In this document: one piece after another, positions 45,756 to 59,015 of the stretch
Layout of the letters: the number at the start of each line of letters is the position of its first letter
Numbering within the stretch: the first letter of the stretch is position 1
Program-made: the position numbers and the translations under genes
From: Balneolaceae bacterium
GTDB lineage: Bacteria; Bacteroidota; Rhodothermia; Balneolales; Balneolaceae
DNA: 64,000 bases
NCBI GenBank assembly: GCA_034521445.1
Contig: JAXHMM010000005.1
Location: 124,001 to 188,000 of the forward strand
Reading direction: 5' to 3'
The notes under the pieces: generated by a model
Databases searched by the model: none
What the model saw: the letters and a program-made list of their open reading frames with translations, nothing else
What the model was told of the DNA's origin: nothing

Positions 45756-46144
45756 GATCGTAAATCTGACATGGGTCCGGTGAAGGCACACAAAATAAGC
45801 ACTTCGAACCACCAAATCTTCCGCCGGCGGGAATCGTTCCGGGCCCGGCTGCCCCCTATTTATATATAGCCCTCTGTTTTTCAGCCGGATAGCTATGTGC
45901 CCGGACCCGGACATATTTTCCGGGCTCACGCCATCATTTCATAAGCATTTATTTGACTCAGCTTTTATCTTGGGACCTGCCGCCGCAAAGGGGTCCAACA
46001 GGGACGACTCAAGTTATTTAGATCGGTTTTAAATAGCCGGGAGCTCAATTCGCGCGGTTCTAAAAAACGGGTATTTTCCCTACCTTCTTGCCGACTCCGA
46101 AACGGGATCCGCTGAATCAGCAACGACTAATTTCACCACAGACC
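45756..46144. promoter_or_regulatory. Divergent regulatory region between the DUF420 gene and the act-cox operon
   Basis: 389 bases with no gene. It contains an AT-rich patch around CCCCCTATTTATATATAGCCC (about 45852-45872), a GC-rich inverted pair GTGCCCGG/CCGGGCTCAC (about 45897-45928) and a second AT-rich patch (about 45935-46050) with TTTATTTGACTCAGCTTTTATCTTGG. The two AT patches could hold the opposed promoters. No specific regulator site is identifiable. Confidence 0.4.
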
Positions 46145-46789
46145 ATGGCGCAGATCTTCCCCCAATGGGCTAACGAAGTACCGCGACGGATGCTACTGGG
46201 ACTCATCATCGTTGTGACCGCGATGGTTGCCGGAGTCTGGTACTATTTCTCCCCCGAATACACCGACGTGGGCTACGCTCCCGAGCAGCCCGTACCCTAC
46301 AGCCACAAGCTGCACGCCGGCGAGCTGGGACTCGACTGCCAGTACTGCCACAGCGAGGTATTCAATTCCAAGCAGGCCAACGTGCCGGCCACCCAGACCT
46401 GCATGAACTGCCACGAGCAAATCGCCACCGACAGCGAAAACCTGGCCGAGATCCGCGAGAGCTGGGAGACCGGGCAGCCGGTGGAGTGGGTGCGCGTGCA
46501 CAACCTGCCCGACTACGCCTATTTCAACCACGCCGCGCACGTGAACGTGGGCGTGGGATGCGAAACCTGCCACGGCCGTGTGGACCGCATGGAGGTGGTC
46601 TTCCAGAAGGAGCCGCTCAGCATGAGCTGGTGCCTGGACTGCCACCGCAATCCCGAGCAGTACGTGCGTCCCGTAGAGGAGGTGACCACCATGGGCTTCC
46701 AACCCGAAAACCAGGTCGAAATGGGACGGGACCTGGTGGCCAAGCACAACATCCAGCCGCCCACCTACTGCCAGAGTTGCCACTACTGA
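46145..46789 (+). CDS. actA: Alternative complex III subunit A, pentahaem cytochrome c (ActA)
   Basis: A 214-residue membrane-anchored multihaem cytochrome c, part of the menaquinol:electron-acceptor complex that replaces cytochrome bc1. One N-terminal membrane helix (LLGLIIVVTAMVAGVWYYF) is followed by five CxxCH haem sites: CQYCH, CMNCH, CETCH, CLDCH and CQSCH at the very C-terminus. Extra His residues such as YSHKLHAG and FNHAAHVN are candidate axial ligands. The start MAQIFPQWAN (46145) fits the family better than the TTG at 46088. It is the first gene of the act-cox operon. Confidence 0.92.
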   Translation: MAQIFPQWANEVPRRMLLGLIIVVTAMVAGVWYYFSPEYTDVGYAPEQPVPYSHKLHAGELGLDCQYCHSEVFNSKQANVPATQTCMNCHEQIATDSENLAEIRESWETGQPVEWVRVHNLPDYAYFNHAAHVNVGVGCETCHGRVDRMEVVFQKEPLSMSWCLDCHRNPEQYVRPVEEVTTMGFQPENQVEMGRDLVAKHNIQPPTYCQSCHY

Positions 46790-46831
46790 GCCACACCTTC
46801 TGCGTGAATTTGAATCCCTATATCTAAGCGA

Positions 46832-49800
46832 ATGAGCAGCGAAGCACAACGTCCCAACTACTGGAAAAGCCTGAATGAGCTGGCGCAGAACGAAGAGTAC
46901 AAGGAGTTCGCCGAGCGGGAGTTTCCGGAAAACGCCACCGAGCTGAGCGACCGCATTTCGCGGCGCAGCTTCCTCCGCGTGATGGGGGCCTCCGTCGCCA
47001 TGGCCGGTTTCGCGGCCTGCCGCCGTCCCGCCCAGAAGATCCTGCCCTACAGCAGGCAGCCGGAGGAGGTAGTGCCGGGCGTGCCGCTCTTCTACGCCTC
47101 GGCCATGCCCTTCCAGGACGCGCTGACGGGACTGGTGGTGGAAAACCACGAGGGACGCCCAACCAAGATCGAGGGCAACGAGATGCAGGCCGCCAGCCGC
47201 GGTGCGACCAGCATCTTCAACCAGGCGGCCATCCTGGGCATGTACGATCCCGACCGCTCGCGCTACATCCGCCGCAACGGCGAGCGCGCCTCCCTCAACG
47301 ACTTTCAATCTTTCTGCGCCGAGCACTTTTCCGATACCTCGCGCAGCATCGTCTTCCTTTCGGAGGCCAGCTCCTCCCCCACCTTCAACCGCATCCGCGG
47401 GCAGGCCCTGCAGCGATTCGGCAACGCGGAGTGGATCACCTGGGAGCCCTTCGGGGAGAACAACGCCCTGGAAGGCACCCGCCTCGCATTTGGACGCCGT
47501 CTCCGCACGGTGAACCGCTACGACGAGGCGGACGTCATCGTGTCGCTGGACGACGACTTCCTGAACCCGGCCGCCCACAAGAACAGCGTGGAGAACAGCC
47601 AGCGCTTCGCCGATCGGCGCCGCGTGATGTCCACCGACGACGACATGTCGCGCCTCTACAGCGTGGAGAGCACCTTTACGCTCACCGGCTCCAACGCCGA
47701 CAACCGCCTGCGGCTGAAAAGTTCTGAGATTCCCCTCTTTACCTGCGCCCTGGCCGCCCGCCTGTCGGAGTCGGTCAGCGGACTTTCATCCTTCAGCGGC
47801 CACAGCAGCAAATTTTCCGGCCACGAATGGATCGGGGCCCTGGCCGAAGACCTTCTCGCCAGCCGCGGGGCCTCCGTGGTGACCGCCGGCGGAGAACACA
47901 GCCCCGAGGTGCATGCTGCCGTGGCCGCCATCAACGCGGCCCTGGGCAACATAGGCAGCACCGTAGCCTACTACGAGGTGCCCCACATGGAACAGTCCGA
48001 CAGCCGCGAGGCCCTTGCGGAGCTGGCCGGGCGCCTCCGCAACGGGGAGGTGGACACCGTCGTGATGACGGGCACCAACCCCGCCTTCGACGCCCCGGCC
48101 GACCTGGATTTCGGCGCGGCCCTCGAAGAGGCCGCCGAAGTGATCCACCTGGCCGACTACTACGACGAGACCTCGCAGCTGGCGAGCTGGCACGTCAACC
48201 GCACCCACTTCCTGGAGGCCTGGAGCGACGGCTACTCCTACGGGGGAGAGCGTTCGGTGGTCCAGCCCCAGATCGAACCCCTCTTTTCGGGCGTGAGCGA
48301 CATCGAATTCCTGAATACCATCGTCACAGGACAGGCCTCTGACGGCTATGAGCTGGTGCGGCAGACCTGGCGCTCCTTCCTGGGCAGCGCGAACTTCCAG
48401 GACAACTGGGAGCGCGTACTGCACGACGGTGTGGAGAGCGAAGGCCATTTCGAGGAGGTCACCCCCGGCGTGAGCAGCTCCTTTGACGCCGCGGCGCAGG
48501 AGCTGATGTCCCGTGCCGCACCCTCCGAAGGCCTGGAGCTGGTCATCCGGCCCGATTCCAAGGTCTTTGACGGGCGCTACGCCAACAACGGCTGGCTGCA
48601 GGAGCTTCCCGAACCCATGACCAAGATCACCTGGGACAACGTGGCCCTGATGAGCAGGTCCACCGCCGAATCCCTCGGCATCGAGGCCGCGGGACTGGGC
48701 GAGACCGAAACCGAGGTAGTGTCTCTTACCGTGAACGGCACCACCGTGGAGATCCCCGCCTGGGTGCAGCCCGGCCACGCCGACGACAGCATCACCGTCA
48801 CCGTGGGCTACGGGCGCGAAGGCATCGGCAAGGTGGCCAACGGCACCGGCATCGACACCTATCCCCTGCGCACCACCGATACCATGCACTTCGCCACCGG
48901 CGTCTCGGTGGAGCTGGCGGGACGGAGCTATCCCATCGCCTGCACGCAGGACCACTCCAGCATGGAGGGCCGCTCCCTGCTGCGCCACGCCACCCTGGAG
49001 GAATACCGCGAGGAACCCGATTTTTCGACCTACGACGCCGCCTACGACGCGGAACTTCCCGGACAGGCCTACGCCGAGGAGCACGGCGCCGACACCCCGC
49101 TGAGCATTTTCGACGCCATTGACGGGGCCGACTACCCCGACTACGAACCGCAGTGGGGCATGTCCATCGACCTCAACTCCTGCATAGGCTGCGGGGTGTG
49201 CACCATCGCCTGCCAGGCCGAAAACAACATTCCCGTGATCGGCAAGCGGGAGGTGAACAGGGGACGCGAGATGCACTGGATACGCAACGACCGCTACTTC
49301 GAGGGCGATGCGGACAACCCGCAGGCCCTCCACCAGCCGGTGCCCTGCATGCACTGCGAGCTGGCGCCCTGCGAGCAGGTCTGCCCGGTGGCCGCCACCA
49401 CCCACAGCGAGGACGGCATGAACCAGATGGCCTACAATCGCTGCATCGGCACCCGCTACTGCGCCAACAACTGCCCCTACAAGGTGCGCCGCTTCAATTT
49501 CTTCAACTACACCAAAGAGTTTCTGACCAGCGGCGACGATCCCGAAGTGGTGCAGATGGCCATGAACCCCGAGGTAACCGTCCGGTTCCGCGGGGTGATG
49601 GAGAAATGCACCTACTGCGTGCAGCGTGTAAACCGTGCCAAAATCAATCGCGAAATCGAAACCGACGGGGCCACCATGAAACCGGAGGACGGCAGCGTGG
49701 TGACCGCCTGCCAGCAGGCCTGTCCCACCGACGCCATCTACTTCGGCGACCTCACCGACTCCGAGAGCAACGTGGTGCAGTCCAAGCTCAACGAGCGCAA

Positions 49801-49885
49801 CTACCTGCTCCTTGAAGAGCTCAGCACGCGTCCCCGCACCTCCTACCTCGCCAAGCTGCGCAATCCCAACCCGAACCTGGCCTAA
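46832..49885 (+). CDS. actB: Alternative complex III subunit B, molybdopterin-oxidoreductase-like plus 4Fe-4S domains (ActB)
   Basis: A 1017-residue subunit. A conserved N-terminal segment ([23 protein letters not shown]) precedes an internal twin-arginine signal, [21 protein letters not shown], near residue 45, so the folded protein is exported by Tat. The large middle part resembles the DMSO-reductase family but lacks an evident molybdopterin ligand motif, as is usual in ActB. The C-terminal quarter carries the iron-sulfur clusters: [50 protein letters not shown] and CTYCVQRV with CQQACPTDA. This matches the fused B1-B2 form. It accepts electrons via ActC. Confidence 0.94.
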
Positions 49886-49902
49886 CCAGAAACCGATATA
49901 CG

Positions 49903-51345
49903 ATGAGCACCAATTATACGTATGCACCCGAACCGGCACTGGTCAAGGGCGACCACGATTTCGGCAGCATCACCGACCTGATTGCGCGCACGCCCCTGTC
50001 GCCCACGCCCAAGCTCTGGTACCTGGCATTCGGCGTGGCCAACCTGCTGCTGATCGTCCTGCTGGGTTCCATCGCCTACCTGATCTGGGAGGGAACGGGT
50101 ATCTGGGGACTCAACAACCCCGCCGGCTGGGGCTGGGCCATCATCAACTTCGTCTGGTGGGTGGGTATAGGTCACGCCGGCACACTCATTTCGGCCATTC
50201 TCTTTCTTTTCAGGCAGGGCTGGCGAACCGCCATCAACCGTTTTGCGGAGGCGATGACCATCTTCGCCGTGCTCTGCGCCGGTATTTTCCCGGCCATCCA
50301 CGTAGGTAGGATCTGGGTGATCTACTGGGTCTTCCCCATTCCCAACCAGATGGGCATATGGCCCAACTTCAGTTCGCCCCTGCTGTGGGACGTCTTCGCG
50401 GTGGGGACCTACCTGACGGTCTCCCTCCTCTTCTGGTACGTGGGACTCATCCCCGACCTGGCCACACTGCGCGACAAGGCCAAGAGCAAAATCGCCCAGG
50501 TCTCCTACGGCATCTTCGCCCTGGGCTGGACCGGCAGCTTCCGCAACTGGTGGAACTACGAGAAGGCCTACATGATCCTGGCCGCCCTCGCCACCCCCCT
50601 GGTGCTCTCGGTGCACACCATCGTTTCCTTTGACTTTGCCGTCTCCATGATCCCGGGCTGGCACAGCACCATCTTCCCGCCCTACTTCGTCGCCGGCGCC
50701 ATCTACTCCGGCTTCGCCATGGTGCTCACCCTTATGATCATCGCCCGCAAAATCTATGGGCTGGAAGATATTATGAACATCGACGTGATGGAGCGTATGA
50801 ACATCGTCATGATGGTGACGGGCAACCTGGTGGCCTTCGCCTACCTGTGCGAGGGCTTCGTCGCCTGGTACAGCGGCTACATCTACGAGCAGGGTATCTT
50901 CTGGCTCTACGCCACCGGCCCCTACGCATGGGCCTTCTATATACTGATGTTCTGCAACGTGATCACCCCGCAGTTCCTCTGGTCGAAGAGCATCAGACGC
51001 AACGTGGCCATCACCTTCGTGATCTCCATCATCGTGAACATCGGCATGTGGTTCGAGCGCTTCATGATCGCCGTGGTATCGCTTTCCACCGACTTCATGC
51101 CCTCCAACTGGGATTACTACTCCCCCACCATGTGGGACATTTCGATCTACGTCGGCACCTTCGGACTCTTTTTCACCTGCTTCCTGCTTTTCCTGCGCTA
51201 CCTGCCGATGGTCGCCATCGCCGAGGTCAAGGGCGCCATGCCCCAGGCCAACCCGCACAACTACGACGAGGAGAGCGGGGAATTCGATCCGAGCAGCGTG
51301 GAACCGAAGCTCGTTGAGGTCGCACAGCAAGAGCAAACCGCCTAA
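49903..51345 (+). CDS. actC: Alternative complex III subunit C, NrfD-like quinol-binding membrane subunit (ActC)
   Basis: A 480-residue integral membrane protein of the NrfD/PsrC family with about ten helices. [58 protein letters not shown] and [31 protein letters not shown] are characteristic, the last holding the conserved His and Asp of the quinol site. The C-terminus is soluble. It is 17 bases after actB and 11 before actD. The function is inferred to be menaquinol oxidation coupled to proton transfer, as in other ActC proteins. Confidence 0.94.
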
Positions 51346-51356
51346 AACGCCGCACC

Positions 51357-51905
51357 ATGAAAGCCAACGACACGAAACTATACGGCATCCTGGCCGAGTT
51401 CCGCAATCCCAAGGAGTTGACGGATGCGGCCGAGGCCGTCGAACGCTCCGGCTACAGGGACTACGACACCTACGCCCCCTTCCCCATCCACGGGATGGAG
51501 AAGGCCATGGCCCTCAAGAACTCCCCCCTGGGATGGATTGTGCTGGTCGGGGGACTGACAGGCATGATCGGGGCCCTGGCCCTGATGATCTGGGTGATGG
51601 GCTACGAATACCCCATGAACATCAGCGGGAAGCCCTACATCAACTTTCCCATCTACGTACCCATCACCTTCGAGCTGACCGTGCTCTTTTCGGCCTTTGC
51701 GGCCACCTTCGGCATGCTGGCGATGAACGGACTTCCGCGCCTGCACAACCCGCTGTTCAACGTGGAGCGCTTCAAGAAGGCTTCGGACGACGGTTTCTTC
51801 ATCTGCATCGAGGCCACCGACGACCTCTTCGCCGAGGAGAAAGTCTCCAAGCTCTTCAGCGACCAGGGGGCCACCCACATTGAGACCGTCTACGAATCGG
51901 AATAG
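51357..51905 (+). CDS. actD: Alternative complex III subunit D, DUF3341 (ActD)
   Basis: A 182-residue protein of the DUF3341 family. The N-terminus is soluble (YGILAEFRNPKELTDAAEAVERSGYRDYDTYAPFPIHGMEKAM), then two membrane helices (GWIVLVGGLTGMIGALALMIWVMGY and ITFELTVLFSAFAATFGMLAMNGLP) and a soluble C-terminus with GFFICIEATD. This layout and neighbourhood are specific for ActD, a structural subunit with no cofactor. It precedes actE. Confidence 0.93.
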   Translation: MKANDTKLYGILAEFRNPKELTDAAEAVERSGYRDYDTYAPFPIHGMEKAMALKNSPLGWIVLVGGLTGMIGALALMIWVMGYEYPMNISGKPYINFPIYVPITFELTVLFSAFAATFGMLAMNGLPRLHNPLFNVERFKKASDDGFFICIEATDDLFAEEKVSKLFSDQGATHIETVYESE

Positions 51906-51909
51906 CCAC

Positions 51910-52914
51910 ATGTTCAACACGCAACCGCACCCGATGAATCGATCCAAGCTTGTACTCCTGGCCGCCCTGGCACTTCCCCTGGTGCTGGCATCCTGCCGTG
52001 GACAGATCTCCGAGAAGGAGCCCATCCACCCCAACATGAACATGGACCAGCAGAATCGCTTCGAAGCCCAGGAGAGCAATCCCTTTTTCGAGGACAACCG
52101 CTCCATGCGCATGCCGGTGGAGGGCACCGTGGCCCGCGGCAACCTGCGCGCCGACAAGGCCTACTACCAGGGCATCAACCCCGACAGCTCCTTCGTCGAG
52201 GAGATGCCCGTGGAGCTGAGCCGCGAGCTTCTGAACAGGGGACAGCGCCAGTACAACGTCTACTGCAGCGTCTGCCACGGCGTTACCGGGGCGGGCAACG
52301 GCATTATCATGGAGGGGCAGTACGGCTTCGTGCCGGCCCCCACCTTCCATATGGATCGCATCCGCGACCTGCCGGACGGCCATCTCTATTCGGTCATCGC
52401 CAACGGCATACGCACCATGCCCGGCTACGGCCACCAGGTCAAGGTGGAGGACCGCTGGGCCATCGTGGCCTACCTGCGCGCCCTGCAGCGCAGCCAGAAT
52501 GTGAGCGAGGAGGAGATGCAGCAGTACGAGGTGGACCTGGCCGCCCTCCAGCAGGAATACGCCGCGCGCATGCAGGCCGAGCAGGAACGGGAGGCCGCCG
52601 CCTCGGCCGGCGAGGAGATCTCCGCCGAGCGCGGACAGCAGCTCTTCACGCAGAACGGCTGCCAGGGCTGCCACTCCATCGACGGCAGCGACGGGGTGGG
52701 TCCCACCCACCAGAACCTCTTCGGGCGCACCGAGACCATGGAGGACGGCTCCACCGTGACGGTCGACTCCGCCTACGTGCACGATTCCATCGTAAATCCC
52801 TCCGAACAAATCGTGGAGGGCTACCAGCCGGTCATGGTTCCCTACGACTACCTGAGCGAAGCGGAGATCGCCTCCATCATCGCCTACCTGCGAACCCTCA
52901 GCGATAACCAGTAA
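51910..52914 (+). CDS. actE: Alternative complex III subunit E, dihaem cytochrome c lipoprotein with extra CoxB-like domain (ActE)
   Basis: A 334-residue lipoprotein cytochrome c. The lipobox is LPLVLASC, and either the ATG at 51910 or the one at 51934 is plausible. The first cytochrome c domain has CSVCHG (about residue 119), then RTMPGYGHQV with a Met ligand. A coiled, Glu/Ala/Gln-rich linker (EYAARMQAEQEREAAASAGEE) leads to a second domain with GCQGCHSID and a tail closely similar to the cytochrome domain of CoxB in this operon (LFGRTETMEDGSTVTVD versus LFGSTETLSDGSTVEVD). Classical ActE has one haem, so the second domain is an addition and could act as an electron exit toward the oxidase. 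Confidence 0.9.
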   Translation: MFNTQPHPMNRSKLVLLAALALPLVLASCRGQISEKEPIHPNMNMDQQNRFEAQESNPFFEDNRSMRMPVEGTVARGNLRADKAYYQGINPDSSFVEEMPVELSRELLNRGQRQYNVYCSVCHGVTGAGNGIIMEGQYGFVPAPTFHMDRIRDLPDGHLYSVIANGIRTMPGYGHQVKVEDRWAIVAYLRALQRSQNVSEEEMQQYEVDLAALQQEYAARMQAEQEREAAASAGEEISAERGQQLFTQNGCQGCHSIDGSDGVGPTHQNLFGRTETMEDGSTVTVDSAYVHDSIVNPSEQIVEGYQPVMVPYDYLSEAEIASIIAYLRTLSDNQ

Positions 52915-52929
52915 GCACCCGATTCCGCC

Positions 52930-54114
52930 ATGAGCAACGTCAAAATCACCGACAACCTGGATTTCCCGGCCGAACTGAATCCCACAAGGAGCCTGTTCGG
53001 CGTGGGCGTGGTTGCCCTTATTGCCACCGCGGTCGGCTACTTTTTGGACCACGACCAGTTTTTCTTCTCCTACCTGGTGAGCTTTGCCTTCTACTCCAGC
53101 ATCGGGCTGGCCTGCCTCTTTTTTGTGATGCTGCAGCACGTGACCCGCTCCCACTGGAGCGTGGCCCTGCGCCGCATTCCCGAGGCCTTCTCCTCCAACC
53201 TCTGGATCTGGGGCCTTTTCATTATTCCCGTGCTGCTGGGCATGCACTCCCTCTACCACTGGACCCACGCCGATGCGGTCGCCGCCGACCCGGTACTCCA
53301 GGGCAAGGTCCCCTACCTGAACACCCCTTTCTTCATTGCGCGCCAGGTGCTCTACTTTGCCATATGGAGCTTCCTGGGCTACCGCCTCTACAGGAAATCC
53401 GTCGAAATGGACGAGACGGGCGACTGGGGACTGCAGACCCTGCTCCGGCGGACCAGCGGACCGGGAATCTTCGTTTTCGGCATCACCTTCGCCTTCGCCA
53501 GCTTCGACTGGATGATGTCCCTCGATCCCCACTGGTACTCCACCATGTTCGGCGTCTACTATTTCGCCATGAGCTTCCAGGCCTTCTTCGCCATGATGAT
53601 CCTGCTGGTGCTCTTCCTCTGGAAGCGCGGCCTGCTGACCGACACCCTGCAGAAGGGACACCTCTACGACCTGTCGGTGCAGATGTTCGGCTTTACCATA
53701 TTCTACGCCTACATCGCTTTTTCCCAGTTCCTGCTGATCTACTACGCCAACATTCCCGAAGAGACCGTCTGGTTCCTGGAGCGCCTGCAGGGCGGCTACC
53801 AGTACCTGGCCTGGTTCTACCTCTTCGGCCGATTTGTAATTCCCTTCGTAGTGCTTCTGCCTAAGTGGGTCAAGACCAACACTCGGATCGTGAGCACCGT
53901 CTCCGTGCTGATTCTCGTCTCCCACCTGGTGGAGCTCTACTGGATCATCATGCCGGTGCTCAACGAACACGGCTTCCATTTTAACTGGATGACCCTCACC
54001 GCCCTGCTGGGACTCGGAGGCGTTTTCCTGGGCTTCTTTTTCCATCGCTACGCCCAGGGCAAGATGGTGCCGTTGAAAGACCCACGCCTGGCGGATTCGC
54101 TGGACAAACACTGA
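52930..54114 (+). CDS. actF: Alternative complex III subunit F, NrfD-like membrane subunit (ActF)
   Basis: A 394-residue membrane protein with about ten helices. It is homologous to ActC in fold but shorter; conserved parts include FFFSYLVSFAFYSSIGLACLFFVMLQHVTRSHWSV, LWIWGLFIIPVLLGMHSLYHWTH, and TFAFASFDWMMSLDPHWYSTMFGVYYFAMSFQAFFAMM. The latter SFDWMMSLDPHWYSTMFG block is diagnostic for ActF. It probably takes part in proton translocation. It is followed 24 bases later by the HTH-membrane fusion gene. Confidence 0.93.
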   Translation: MSNVKITDNLDFPAELNPTRSLFGVGVVALIATAVGYFLDHDQFFFSYLVSFAFYSSIGLACLFFVMLQHVTRSHWSVALRRIPEAFSSNLWIWGLFIIPVLLGMHSLYHWTHADAVAADPVLQGKVPYLNTPFFIARQVLYFAIWSFLGYRLYRKSVEMDETGDWGLQTLLRRTSGPGIFVFGITFAFASFDWMMSLDPHWYSTMFGVYYFAMSFQAFFAMMILLVLFLWKRGLLTDTLQKGHLYDLSVQMFGFTIFYAYIAFSQFLLIYYANIPEETVWFLERLQGGYQYLAWFYLFGRFVIPFVVLLPKWVKTNTRIVSTVSVLILVSHLVELYWIIMPVLNEHGFHFNWMTLTALLGLGGVFLGFFFHRYAQGKMVPLKDPRLADSLDKH

Positions 54115-54138
54115 TCGAACGAACCTAAGCACAACACC

Positions 54139-54717
54139 ATGGCTGGTACCGAACACTATTCTGCTGATTTTAAACGCACCGTGGCCCGGGAGGCCCTGGA
54201 CCAGGACCGTGAAAACCTGGACCGCCTCTCCGAAAAGCACGGCGTGCCGGTCTCTCTTATACTCACCTGGGCCGTGGAATTGGAGAAACACGGGGAGGAC
54301 GCATTTGCCGACTCCGGCGAGGATGCCGGCGCCCGGGACGCCTCCGAGGCAGTTGGCCCGGACCACCAGACCGGCACGGAGACCTGGGAACTGGAGATCG
54401 AAAACGAAGACGTGGCCGCCGGCGCCAGTGAGGGTGCCATGCTTGACCGCCTCAACTACAAGAGGCTCATTTTCTGGAGTGTTTTCGGCATGGTTCTCGT
54501 TGTGATCTTCACCGTGGCACTCTTCGAATTGTACCAGTACAACACCCAGCTCGTGCGCGAGCGCGTCTCGGCCGGCAGCGAATACTACGAGGTCAACGAG
54601 CTCCGCAGGCAGGGTGAGGATCAACTATCAGAATTCGGTGTGGTGGATCCCGAAGCGGGCATCTACCACATTCCCATTGACAGCGCCATGAACCAGATGG
54701 TGCAGCAAAACAACTGA
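54139..54717 (+). CDS. Transposase-type HTH fused to membrane anchor and oxidase-cluster tail, unknown function
   Basis: A 192-residue protein of three parts. Residues 7-50 read YSADFKRTVAREALDQDREN then LDRLSEKHGVPVSLILTWAVE, the helix-turn-helix pattern of IS3/IS911-type OrfA (HTH_Tnp_1). A polar linker follows to residue 105, then one membrane helix (LIFWSVFGMVLVVIFTVALFE). The C-terminal stretch YEVNELRRQGEDQLSEFGVV and AGIYHIPIDSAMNQMV matches the short YGVVDxxxGIxxIPIxxAM motif found in small proteins of oxidase gene clusters. No transposase catalytic domain or IS ends are present. The gene is in frame between actF and sco. I do not know its function. Confidence 0.75.
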   Translation: MAGTEHYSADFKRTVAREALDQDRENLDRLSEKHGVPVSLILTWAVELEKHGEDAFADSGEDAGARDASEAVGPDHQTGTETWELEIENEDVAAGASEGAMLDRLNYKRLIFWSVFGMVLVVIFTVALFELYQYNTQLVRERVSAGSEYYEVNELRRQGEDQLSEFGVVDPEAGIYHIPIDSAMNQMVQQNN

Positions 54718-54728
54718 GAAGCAACCCC

Positions 54729-55634
54729 ATGAAGTATGTAGGACATGTTCTGCTTGTCGCGGTCCTGTTCCTGCATCCTGAGTATGTTTTCGGCCAGCTT
54801 AACCAGCAGCAACCCCGCGAACTTCAGAATGTAGGCATCGAGGAGCGGCTCGGCGAAAAGATCCCCCTGGATCTTCGCTTCGCCGACGCCGAGGGCGACT
54901 CCGTCACCCTCGGCCAGCTGATGCAGCAGGGCAAGCCCGTGCTGCTGAACCCGGTCTATTACGAATGTCCACAGCTCTGCACGCTGGTCATCGAGGCCGT
55001 GCTTCGCGGGGTGGAGGAGGTTACCTGGAATCCCGGGGACGACTACACCATCGTCACCTTCAGCATCGATCCCGGTGAGGGACCGGAGCTGGCGGCGCGC
55101 GAGAGACAGCGCATCCTTGAGAAACTGGGGCGCCGTGGCGCCGGCGAGGGCTGGCACTTCCTGACCGGCAAAGAGCCGGCCGTCCGCGCGCTGACCGAAG
55201 CCATCGGCTACAAGTACGAGAAACTGGAACGCAACGCCGAATACGCCCACGGGGCCGGCGTGATGTTTGCCAGTCCGCAGGGCGTGCTTACGCGCTATCT
55301 CTACGGCATAAGTTTTACCGGTTTCAACTTCCGCAATGCCCTCTACGAGGCGGCCGACGGAAACATCGGGAGCACCGTAGAACAGGCCCTGCTCTACTGC
55401 TATTCCTACGACCCATCTTCTCAAAGTTACGTGCCCGTGGCATGGCGCATCATGAAGCTCGGCGCCTTGGTCGTCCTGCTATTTCTCGGTATATTTCTCG
55501 CCTTCATGTGGCTGAGAGAGGGGAAAAACAAGAGCAGGAGAGACTGGAGCCTCAGCGGCATCACCCGCATTGATGGTGACGAAGAAAACCCGATCATTGA
55601 AACGAAGATCATAGAAACGAATGCAAGCGATTAG
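54729..55634 (+). CDS. SCO1/SenC-family copper chaperone, membrane-anchored
   Basis: A 301-residue thioredoxin-fold protein that helps deliver copper to the CuA centre of oxidase subunit II. A signal peptide (HVLLVAVLFLHPEYVFG) precedes the domain. The copper-binding motif is YYECPQLC (CxxxC, about residue 77-82), and the third ligand His is in YAHGAGVMF. A C-terminal membrane helix (LVVLLFLGIFLAFMWL) anchors it, unlike classical N-anchored SCO. The last bases overlap the start of coxB by 14 bases, so the two are translationally coupled. Confidence 0.9.
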   Translation: MKYVGHVLLVAVLFLHPEYVFGQLNQQQPRELQNVGIEERLGEKIPLDLRFADAEGDSVTLGQLMQQGKPVLLNPVYYECPQLCTLVIEAVLRGVEEVTWNPGDDYTIVTFSIDPGEGPELAARERQRILEKLGRRGAGEGWHFLTGKEPAVRALTEAIGYKYEKLERNAEYAHGAGVMFASPQGVLTRYLYGISFTGFNFRNALYEAADGNIGSTVEQALLYCYSYDPSSQSYVPVAWRIMKLGALVVLLFLGIFLAFMWLREGKNKSRRDWSLSGITRIDGDEENPIIETKIIETNASD

Positions 55635-56574
55635 CGATTTTTTCCTGCCCCCGGCCAAGTCCACTCTGGCCTCGCAGATGGACGCCGTATTCTGGTACGT
55701 CCACATCAGCAGCCTGATCTTCACCATCGGGGTGCTTGCGGCCATCGGCTGGTTCATCTGGAAGTACCGCCGCCGTTCCGATAACGACGTCACCCCGGTA
55801 ATCACCCACAACAGCGCCCTGGAGGTCACCTGGTCGGTCATACCCCTGGTGCTCTGCCTGATCTGTTTCGGATGGGGCTTCAAGGCCTTCCAGGATTTCC
55901 GTACCGTACCCGACGACGCCTACGAGGTGAACGTGACCGGGCAAAAATGGACCTGGCAGTTCAGCTACGCCAACGGGGCCAGCACCGTGGGCGAGTTGCA
56001 CGTACCCGCCGACCGCCCCGTCAAGCTGGTCATGACTTCCCGCGACGTTATCCACTCCTTTTATGTGCCCGATTACCGCATTAAGCAGGACGTGGTGCCC
56101 AACCGCTACACCGAGCTCTGGTTCGAGGCCAAGGAGCCGGGCGAGTCGGTGGTATTCTGCACCGAATACTGCGGTACGGACCACTCCAACATGATGGCCC
56201 AGGTGATCGTCCACAGCCCTGAAGAGTTTGAGAACTGGCTGGCTTCCAACGCCGGGGGCGCCTCCCAGCCCGACGACCTGTCACAGGCCGAATGGGGCGA
56301 GCAGATCTCCCAGCAGTACGCCTGCATGACCTGCCACGTTCCCGACGGCAGCGGCCAGGCCCCCTCCTGGGACGGCCTGTTCGGCAGCACCGAGACGCTG
56401 TCGGACGGCTCCACGGTGGAGGTGGACGAAAACTACATCCGCGAGTCCATCCTGGAGCCCAACGCCAAGGTCGTGGAGGGTTACAACGAGGGACTGATGA
56501 ATACCTACCAGGGCACCCTCAACGAAGACCAGATTACGGCCATCATCGAATACATGAAAACGCTGAACAACTGA
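55621..56574 (+). CDS. coxB: Cytochrome c oxidase subunit II with C-terminal cytochrome c (caa3-type)
   Basis: A 317-residue subunit II. Two N-terminal membrane helices (ISSLIFTIGVLAAIGWFIWKY and VIPLVLCLICFGWGFKAF) form the anchor. The cupredoxin domain has WTWQFSYANG and the CuA ligands in VIHSFYVPDYR and FCTEYCGTDHSNMM. A cytochrome c domain follows, with CMTCHVPDG as haem site and YNEGLMNTYQG supplying a Met. This fusion defines caa3-type oxidases, where the tethered cytochrome passes electrons to CuA. Its cytochrome domain closely resembles the extra domain of ActE. It overlaps sco and is 4 bases ahead of coxA. Confidence 0.95.
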   Translation: MQAISDFFLPPAKSTLASQMDAVFWYVHISSLIFTIGVLAAIGWFIWKYRRRSDNDVTPVITHNSALEVTWSVIPLVLCLICFGWGFKAFQDFRTVPDDAYEVNVTGQKWTWQFSYANGASTVGELHVPADRPVKLVMTSRDVIHSFYVPDYRIKQDVVPNRYTELWFEAKEPGESVVFCTEYCGTDHSNMMAQVIVHSPEEFENWLASNAGGASQPDDLSQAEWGEQISQQYACMTCHVPDGSGQAPSWDGLFGSTETLSDGSTVEVDENYIRESILEPNAKVVEGYNEGLMNTYQGTLNEDQITAIIEYMKTLNN

Positions 56575-56577
56575 CAC

Positions 56578-58330
<1,753 letters not shown>

Positions 58331-58357
58331 CAGCGAACCGACAAACGAATTTCAACC

Positions 58358-59015
58358 ATGTCCAATCATTCCGAATCATCCTCGCATCCCGCTTTCCTGC
58401 AGCACCACTTTGTGAATGCGGAGCAGCAGTTCAACACCGCCAAGTTCGGGATGTGGGTGTTCCTGGCCACCGAGATCCTCATGTTCGGGGGACTCTTCGC
58501 CGCCTACATCATCTACCGGGTCTGGCACCCCGAGCTCTTTACGATGGCCTCCACCGAACTTAACACGCTCTGGGGAGGCGTCAACACCCTCGTGCTGATC
58601 GGGAGCTCCCTGACGGTGGCCATGGCCATCAAGTCGGCCCAACTCAACCAGATACGCAACATCGCCATCAACCTGGGCATCACCATTGCCCTGGCCTGCG
58701 TGTTCATGGTGATCAAGTACTTTGAGTACGAACACAAATTCCACCTGGGCATCTACCCGGGCGAATTTTATACTTTTGAGGGCATCGCTCATCCCGAAGG
58801 CCAACATCTTTTTCAGCCTCTACTACCTGATGACCGGTCTGCACGGCATTCACGTGCTCGTGGGCATCGGACTGATGACCTGGCTTCTGGTGCGAACCCT
58901 GAAAGGCCACTTCAACGCCGACTACTACACCCCGGTGGAGATCACCGGCCTCTACTGGCACCTGGTCGACATCATCTGGATCTTCCTCTTCCCGCTCTAC
59001 TACCTGATCGACTGA
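58358..59015 (+). CDS. coxC: Cytochrome c oxidase subunit III (frameshifted as sequenced)
   Basis: The joined frames give about 218 residues of subunit III, a membrane protein without redox centres that stabilises subunit I. The first frame shows [42 protein letters not shown] and [20 protein letters not shown], ending at HPE. The second shows [26 protein letters not shown] and [19 protein letters not shown]. The break is at GAAGGCC (58797-58803): with one G fewer the protein reads [16 protein letters not shown] as expected. It lies between coxA and coxD. Confidence 0.92.

Follow-up and report, generated by a model that had tools for sequence, protein, structure and literature searches.

The actG-Like Gene and Its Operon

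The window, which is the whole 64,000-nucleotide stretch of Balneolaceae DNA that was analyzed, carries on its forward strand a respiratory operon with the order ActABCDEF, an actG-like gene, SCO and CoxBAC. The genes actA-actB-actC-actD-actE occupy 46088..52914 (open reading frames placed by synteny, with PF11821 in ActD and cytochrome c domains in ActE), and actF follows at 52930..54114, assigned by cluster position and conserved synteny as it has no Pfam hit. The actG-like gene (54139..54717) lies directly downstream of actF, and is itself directly followed by a gene for an SCO1/SenC-like protein (54729..55634, PF02630) and by coxB, coxA and coxC of a caa3-type oxidase (55621..59015). The succession of actF, actG-like gene and SCO/cox genes is seen in the window and recurs in nearly every named locus of sufficient length. 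Both coxA (window 56801-56883) and coxC (58794-58816) shift frame midway in this assembly when compared with the intact relative L060; these changes are probably assembly indels and possibly real lesions. Between actF and the actG-like gene, where remnants of an insertion sequence or a separate promoter were sought, there is only a 24 bp spacer, and no promoter-like site was found in window 53900-54900.

The actG-like frame runs from an ATG at 54139 to a stop codon ending at 54717 and encodes 192 residues, in agreement with its orthologues and with the coordinates and motifs given in the initial annotation; it is single copy in its own genome. A mis-assigned start, the objection that might have removed the N-terminus from consideration, was rejected, as an in-frame stop sits only 8 codons upstream of the ATG and the start is conserved among relatives, with the M[SA]... 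start and the helix-turn-helix (HTH) alignable across dozens of orthologues.

The protein begins with the HTH domain (residues 5-57, 54151..54309), for which AF2, run on an alignment of 39 relatives, predicts helices at residues 9-21, 24-34 and 38-56 with a pLDDT of ~95. An acidic, flexible linker of variable length and sequence follows (residues 58-100, 54310..54438), most of it below a pLDDT of 50 (residues 64-86). Hydropathy, the positive-inside count and AF2 together predict a single transmembrane helix at approximately residues 110-128 (54466..54522), inside a long predicted helix over residues 107-165. The C-terminal motif FGVVDPEAGIYHIPIDSAM (residues 166-184, 54634..54690) has the form GVVDxExGIYRIPIDSAM, with columns that are invariant or nearly so, and is the most conserved part of the protein, although the AF2 confidence there is low. 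The membrane helix and C-terminal motif noticed at the outset are thus both recovered. The bias in positive charge across the helix is modest (1.9 K/R on the N-side vs. 1.1), with a cytoplasmic N-terminus favored in 63% of the fused proteins and the opposite orientation in 7%, so that the N-terminus of the window protein is probably cytoplasmic.

Because of its position, single helix and patchy presence, we infer that the window protein is best read as ActG, the single-helix subunit that is optional in alternative complex III (ACIII). ActG of Rhodothermus marinus (R. marinus) has one predicted helix, was confirmed by mass spectrometry, which showed its physical membership in the complex, and is missing from some act clusters (PMC5928083); in Chloroflexus, actG comes after actF in one cluster and before SCO1 in another (PMC3150298). 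As in R. marinus (PMC5928083), the gene directly follows actF in an act cluster with oxidase genes alongside, its product has one transmembrane helix and lacks cofactor motifs, and proteins of this kind are not present in every act cluster. A direct search of the contigs with the single window protein as the query gave no match. A core profile made without the HTH detects ActG in 223 of the 245 class genomes, including short cores at L189 and L191, and the act clusters of KSB1 and Neomarinimicrobiota contain short versions as well.

Homology of the N-Terminal Domain to IS3 OrfA

Taken alone, residues 1-59 of the window protein match HTH_Tnp_1 (PF01527) with an E-value of 0.0032 and 18.1 bits, under the Pfam gathering score of 24.1 bits. 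At the family level the match is significant: PF01527 is found in 15 of 26 scanned members (some of which are HTH-less) with a best E-value of 2.3e-7, and in whole genomes the orthologues from G021, G003, G018, G001 and G028 exceed the cut-off with 25-33 bits. Reciprocally, a profile of the ActG HTH recovers IS3 OrfA genes with an E-value of 6e-16 in the fetched loci and down to 8e-12 in whole genomes, and the OrfA genes inspected, which come from the same order, adjoin a DDE OrfB. A chance resemblance between HTH domains is ruled out by the family-level E-value and the reciprocal profile hits. Judged by these profile comparisons, the window HTH shares its ancestry with OrfA of the IS3 family. 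The assignment made from the sequence at first reading therefore holds for the family, with the window copy itself below threshold.

The structural comparisons speak to a different point. CENP-B, TnpE (2rn7) and TnsB head the list of nearest neighbors of the predicted domain (Z 5-6), followed closely by homeodomains; in VIA-align the IS-related TnpE ranks second (Z 5.6) among generic HTH and homeodomain folds, and the ranking therefore backs the fold and not the ancestry. Foldseek returned nothing below an E-value of 0.5, the sequence search of solved structures gave among transposase-like chains only Cgl2762 (2jn6), at an insignificant level, and the search of plasmids gave no match. An OrfB DDE domain is absent beside the window HTH, the neighbors being actF and SCO.

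Distribution and History of the Fusion

The HTH is present on ActG in 70 of 92 Balneolaceae genomes, the family label being taken from the named loci; of the others, 12 have a short ActG, 8 are without an ActG match and 2 are undecided. Gracilimonas amylolytica is among the natural short forms. Since so many genomes carry it, the fusion is real and not an artefact of annotation, and a very recent insertion in the window genome alone is ruled out by the same family-wide presence. The fusion thus recurs in other act-cox clusters, as had been anticipated, but its range is limited to Balneolaceae: none was found in the ActG examined from other families of the order and class. In a tree of neighboring operon proteins from 137 loci, the smallest clade with all HTH-ActG tips contains Balneolaceae only (support 0.943), and the 12 short forms are nested within it. 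Fitch parsimony on this tree requires 5 changes, and Dollo parsimony 1 gain and 7 losses, so that one gain followed by roughly 4-7 losses fits the operon tree. Two of the losses left N-terminal remnants, MASEEPTYSSESKAK in L014 and MSDKQNSEHKPNEA in L018/L081 (compare MSDKYSSDFKAKVA). The tree of the HTH itself, at 54 sites, fixes neither the exact transposase donor nor the sisterhood of the two ActG-HTH subtypes, and is compatible with a single origin (p-AU 0.385, full search); a p-AU of 0.03 against a single origin, obtained with a less thorough constrained tree, was overturned by that search. Homology, distribution and the single inferred gain together support the initial proposal that an HTH was domesticated on an old accessory protein of respiration, here ActG.

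The HTH has also been replaced as a unit. In genus g17 (Balneola-like), the operon of G063 is mostly 85-100% identical to those of G061 and G059, while the HTH part of actG (~codons 6-60) falls to ~67% identity with sharp edges; between L217 and L218/L219 the swapped block covers the first ~180 nt of actG and its edges match the domain boundaries. The block has a dS of ~0.9 vs. 0.1 in the core and, because the synonymous sites diverge too, recombination is the most likely source of the divergent HTH. A second dip, to 62-67% identity, separates L218 (G061) from both G063 and G059 ~1.4-1.6 kb upstream of actG, in the actE region, which means that the HTH is not the only part exchanged in this way and suggests that short recombination tracts are frequent in the act operon.

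Other fusions were seen in the class. In several other families, ActG carries at its N-terminus a domain of ~100 residues that resembles fibronectin III and is unrelated to the HTH (L109, L179, L180, L181, L183, L184, L188, L193, L205 and L207; Salinibacteraceae-like and others). Its pattern of conserved W, Y, WR and F is FN3-like, Pfam fn3 matches only below threshold, and a profile search found no solved-structure match; as it has no signal peptide, it is possibly cytoplasmic. With this domain elsewhere and the HTH here, unrelated domains have joined the N-terminus of ActG at least twice. Among 240 class genomes, two, both Balneolaceae, also have the same OrfA-type HTH fused N-terminally to a PAS-HisKA_2 sensor kinase (L208 in G011, a 676-aa frame; L209 in G002, a 661-aa frame), and in G002 ActG has lost its own HTH.

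Selection and Loss of the DNA-Contact Surface

Pooled pN/pS is 0.33 in the HTH, 0.38 in the linker and 0.24 in the core, and in many close pairs dN lies well below dS (e.g., 0.02/0.61), which indicates that the HTH is constrained by purifying selection, though less than the core. The well conserved positions are mainly those of the hydrophobic core (V15, A16, A19, L30, A31, V36, I41 and W44), which with W44 is nearly invariant, and the exposed positions of the recognition helix differ between species.

The mean net charge is −2.3 for the ActG HTH (n = 70) vs. +4.2 for OrfA of the same order (n = 12; Mann-Whitney p 1.7e-7), and the median charge of the recognition helix is −2 vs. +1. Since OrfA of the same order is still basic, the acidity of the ActG HTH does not reflect a genome-wide acidic shift. 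The window HTH has a net charge of −4; 9 of the 70 copies are net positive, and some copies retain a few basic residues. The basic N-terminus of OrfA is lost, the OrfA-typical HPNQI has become SEEEI or PVSVI, and the K/R after W44 is replaced by A, I, V or M. Given this altered, acidic contact face, a role in protein contacts is the most plausible guess, and DNA binding of the classical kind is unlikely.

Possible Roles of the Domain

We consider it moderately probable that the window protein is an ActG of ACIII whose domesticated IS3 OrfA HTH now serves as a cytoplasmic protein-contact module and, because some lineages dropped it, as an optional accessory. If the N-terminus is indeed cytoplasmic, the HTH would be placed under the ACIII-caa3 supercomplex, hanging on its acidic tether, where it may act as a docking or self-association module. 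Its partner could be soluble, or the module could contact cytoplasmic loops in ActC, ActF or the oxidase, and such contacts would adjust the assembly or stability of the complex. Reuse of the HTH for protein contacts was one of two functions initially suggested, and it fits the sequence evidence better than a regulator does, which makes it the best reading rather than a demonstration. Counted against it, the repeated losses show that the HTH is dispensable, and the block swap in Balneola is not what an essential, fixed interface would lead one to expect. The basic residues kept in some copies, the 9 net-positive copies and the modest charge bias behind the topology also weigh against it.

The losses and the block swap also speak for a chance fusion, in which an OrfA fragment joined to the start of ActG is tolerated on a free N-terminus and does nothing but fold. 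At least 4 losses (up to 7 under Dollo), the remnant N-termini in L014 and L018/L081, the exchange of the HTH as a block and the unrelated N-terminal domain on ActG of other families all agree with such a passenger, and an N-terminus that gathers domains fits a tolerant free end as well as it fits a docking platform, which keeps this explanation alive. We nevertheless regard it as rather unlikely, given that the HTH persists in 70 of 92 genomes that span the family's depth, that amino-acid change in many pairs lags far behind synonymous change, and that the hydrophobic core and W44 are almost invariant. Purifying selection would also suit the other function first suggested, a membrane-tethered regulator whose HTH binds promoters (e.g., those of act-cox) while the helix and periplasmic motif sense complex assembly, much as in ToxR or CadC, and a genuine HTH fold, probably cytoplasmic, on a subunit of the complex is compatible with it. 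What makes the regulator improbable is the state of the contact surface: the domain and its recognition helix are acidic, positive charge is lost there and at the N-terminus, HPNQI and the basic residues after the W are gone, and the exposed recognition-helix positions vary among species. Inverted repeats of at least 8 bp are absent from 45900-46150, upstream of the operon, and from 54080-54180, before the gene, and sister genera have dropped the HTH while still keeping the operon. On this evidence the transcription-factor proposal is disfavored, and the initial interpretation as a whole is partly supported. It is more doubtful still that the ActG HTH continues to recognize DNA or a nucleoid protein and so anchors the supercomplex on the chromosome, with complex assembly acting back on transcription. 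A protein-contact module thus remains the role we favor.

This seems to be a clear bacterial case in which a transposase DNA-binding domain was recruited, apparently once, to become part of a core respiratory complex subunit, and was kept through most of Balneolaceae while its DNA-contact surface was lost. The class supplies natural variants of ActG on the same anchor, with no N-terminal domain, with the HTH, or with the fibronectin-III-like domain, and these make the little-understood ActG testable. We found no papers naming both Balneolaceae and alternative complex III in the open-access literature searched.

Comparison with Known Systems

The nearest relatives of the ActG HTH are the OrfA genes of the same order, and with HTH_Tnp_1/IS3 OrfA it shares the three-helix domain with its conserved W and FK start; the terminal F is shared by part of the family. 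Unlike IS3 OrfA, which is positive in charge, the ActG HTH is negative and fused to a membrane protein, and it has neither OrfB nor the leucine-zipper tail; insertion-sequence ends were sought and none found. Membrane regulators of the ToxR/CadC type have a cytoplasmic N-terminal HTH of the OmpR-type winged-helix class, one transmembrane helix and a periplasmic C-terminus. ActG resembles them in its N-terminal HTH and single transmembrane helix, and differs in that its HTH is of the Tnp type, with three helices, no wing strands and an acidic surface. Relative to ActG of R. marinus, for which no extra cytoplasmic domain is described (PMC5928083), the window protein adds a 57-residue HTH and an acidic linker before the helix. 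Eukaryotic ceramide synthases with a homeodomain (PMC13294678) are unrelated to ActG and their homeodomain has no known transposon origin, so the parallel is one of analogy only, but they too carry a DNA-binding-type domain on a membrane metabolic enzyme.
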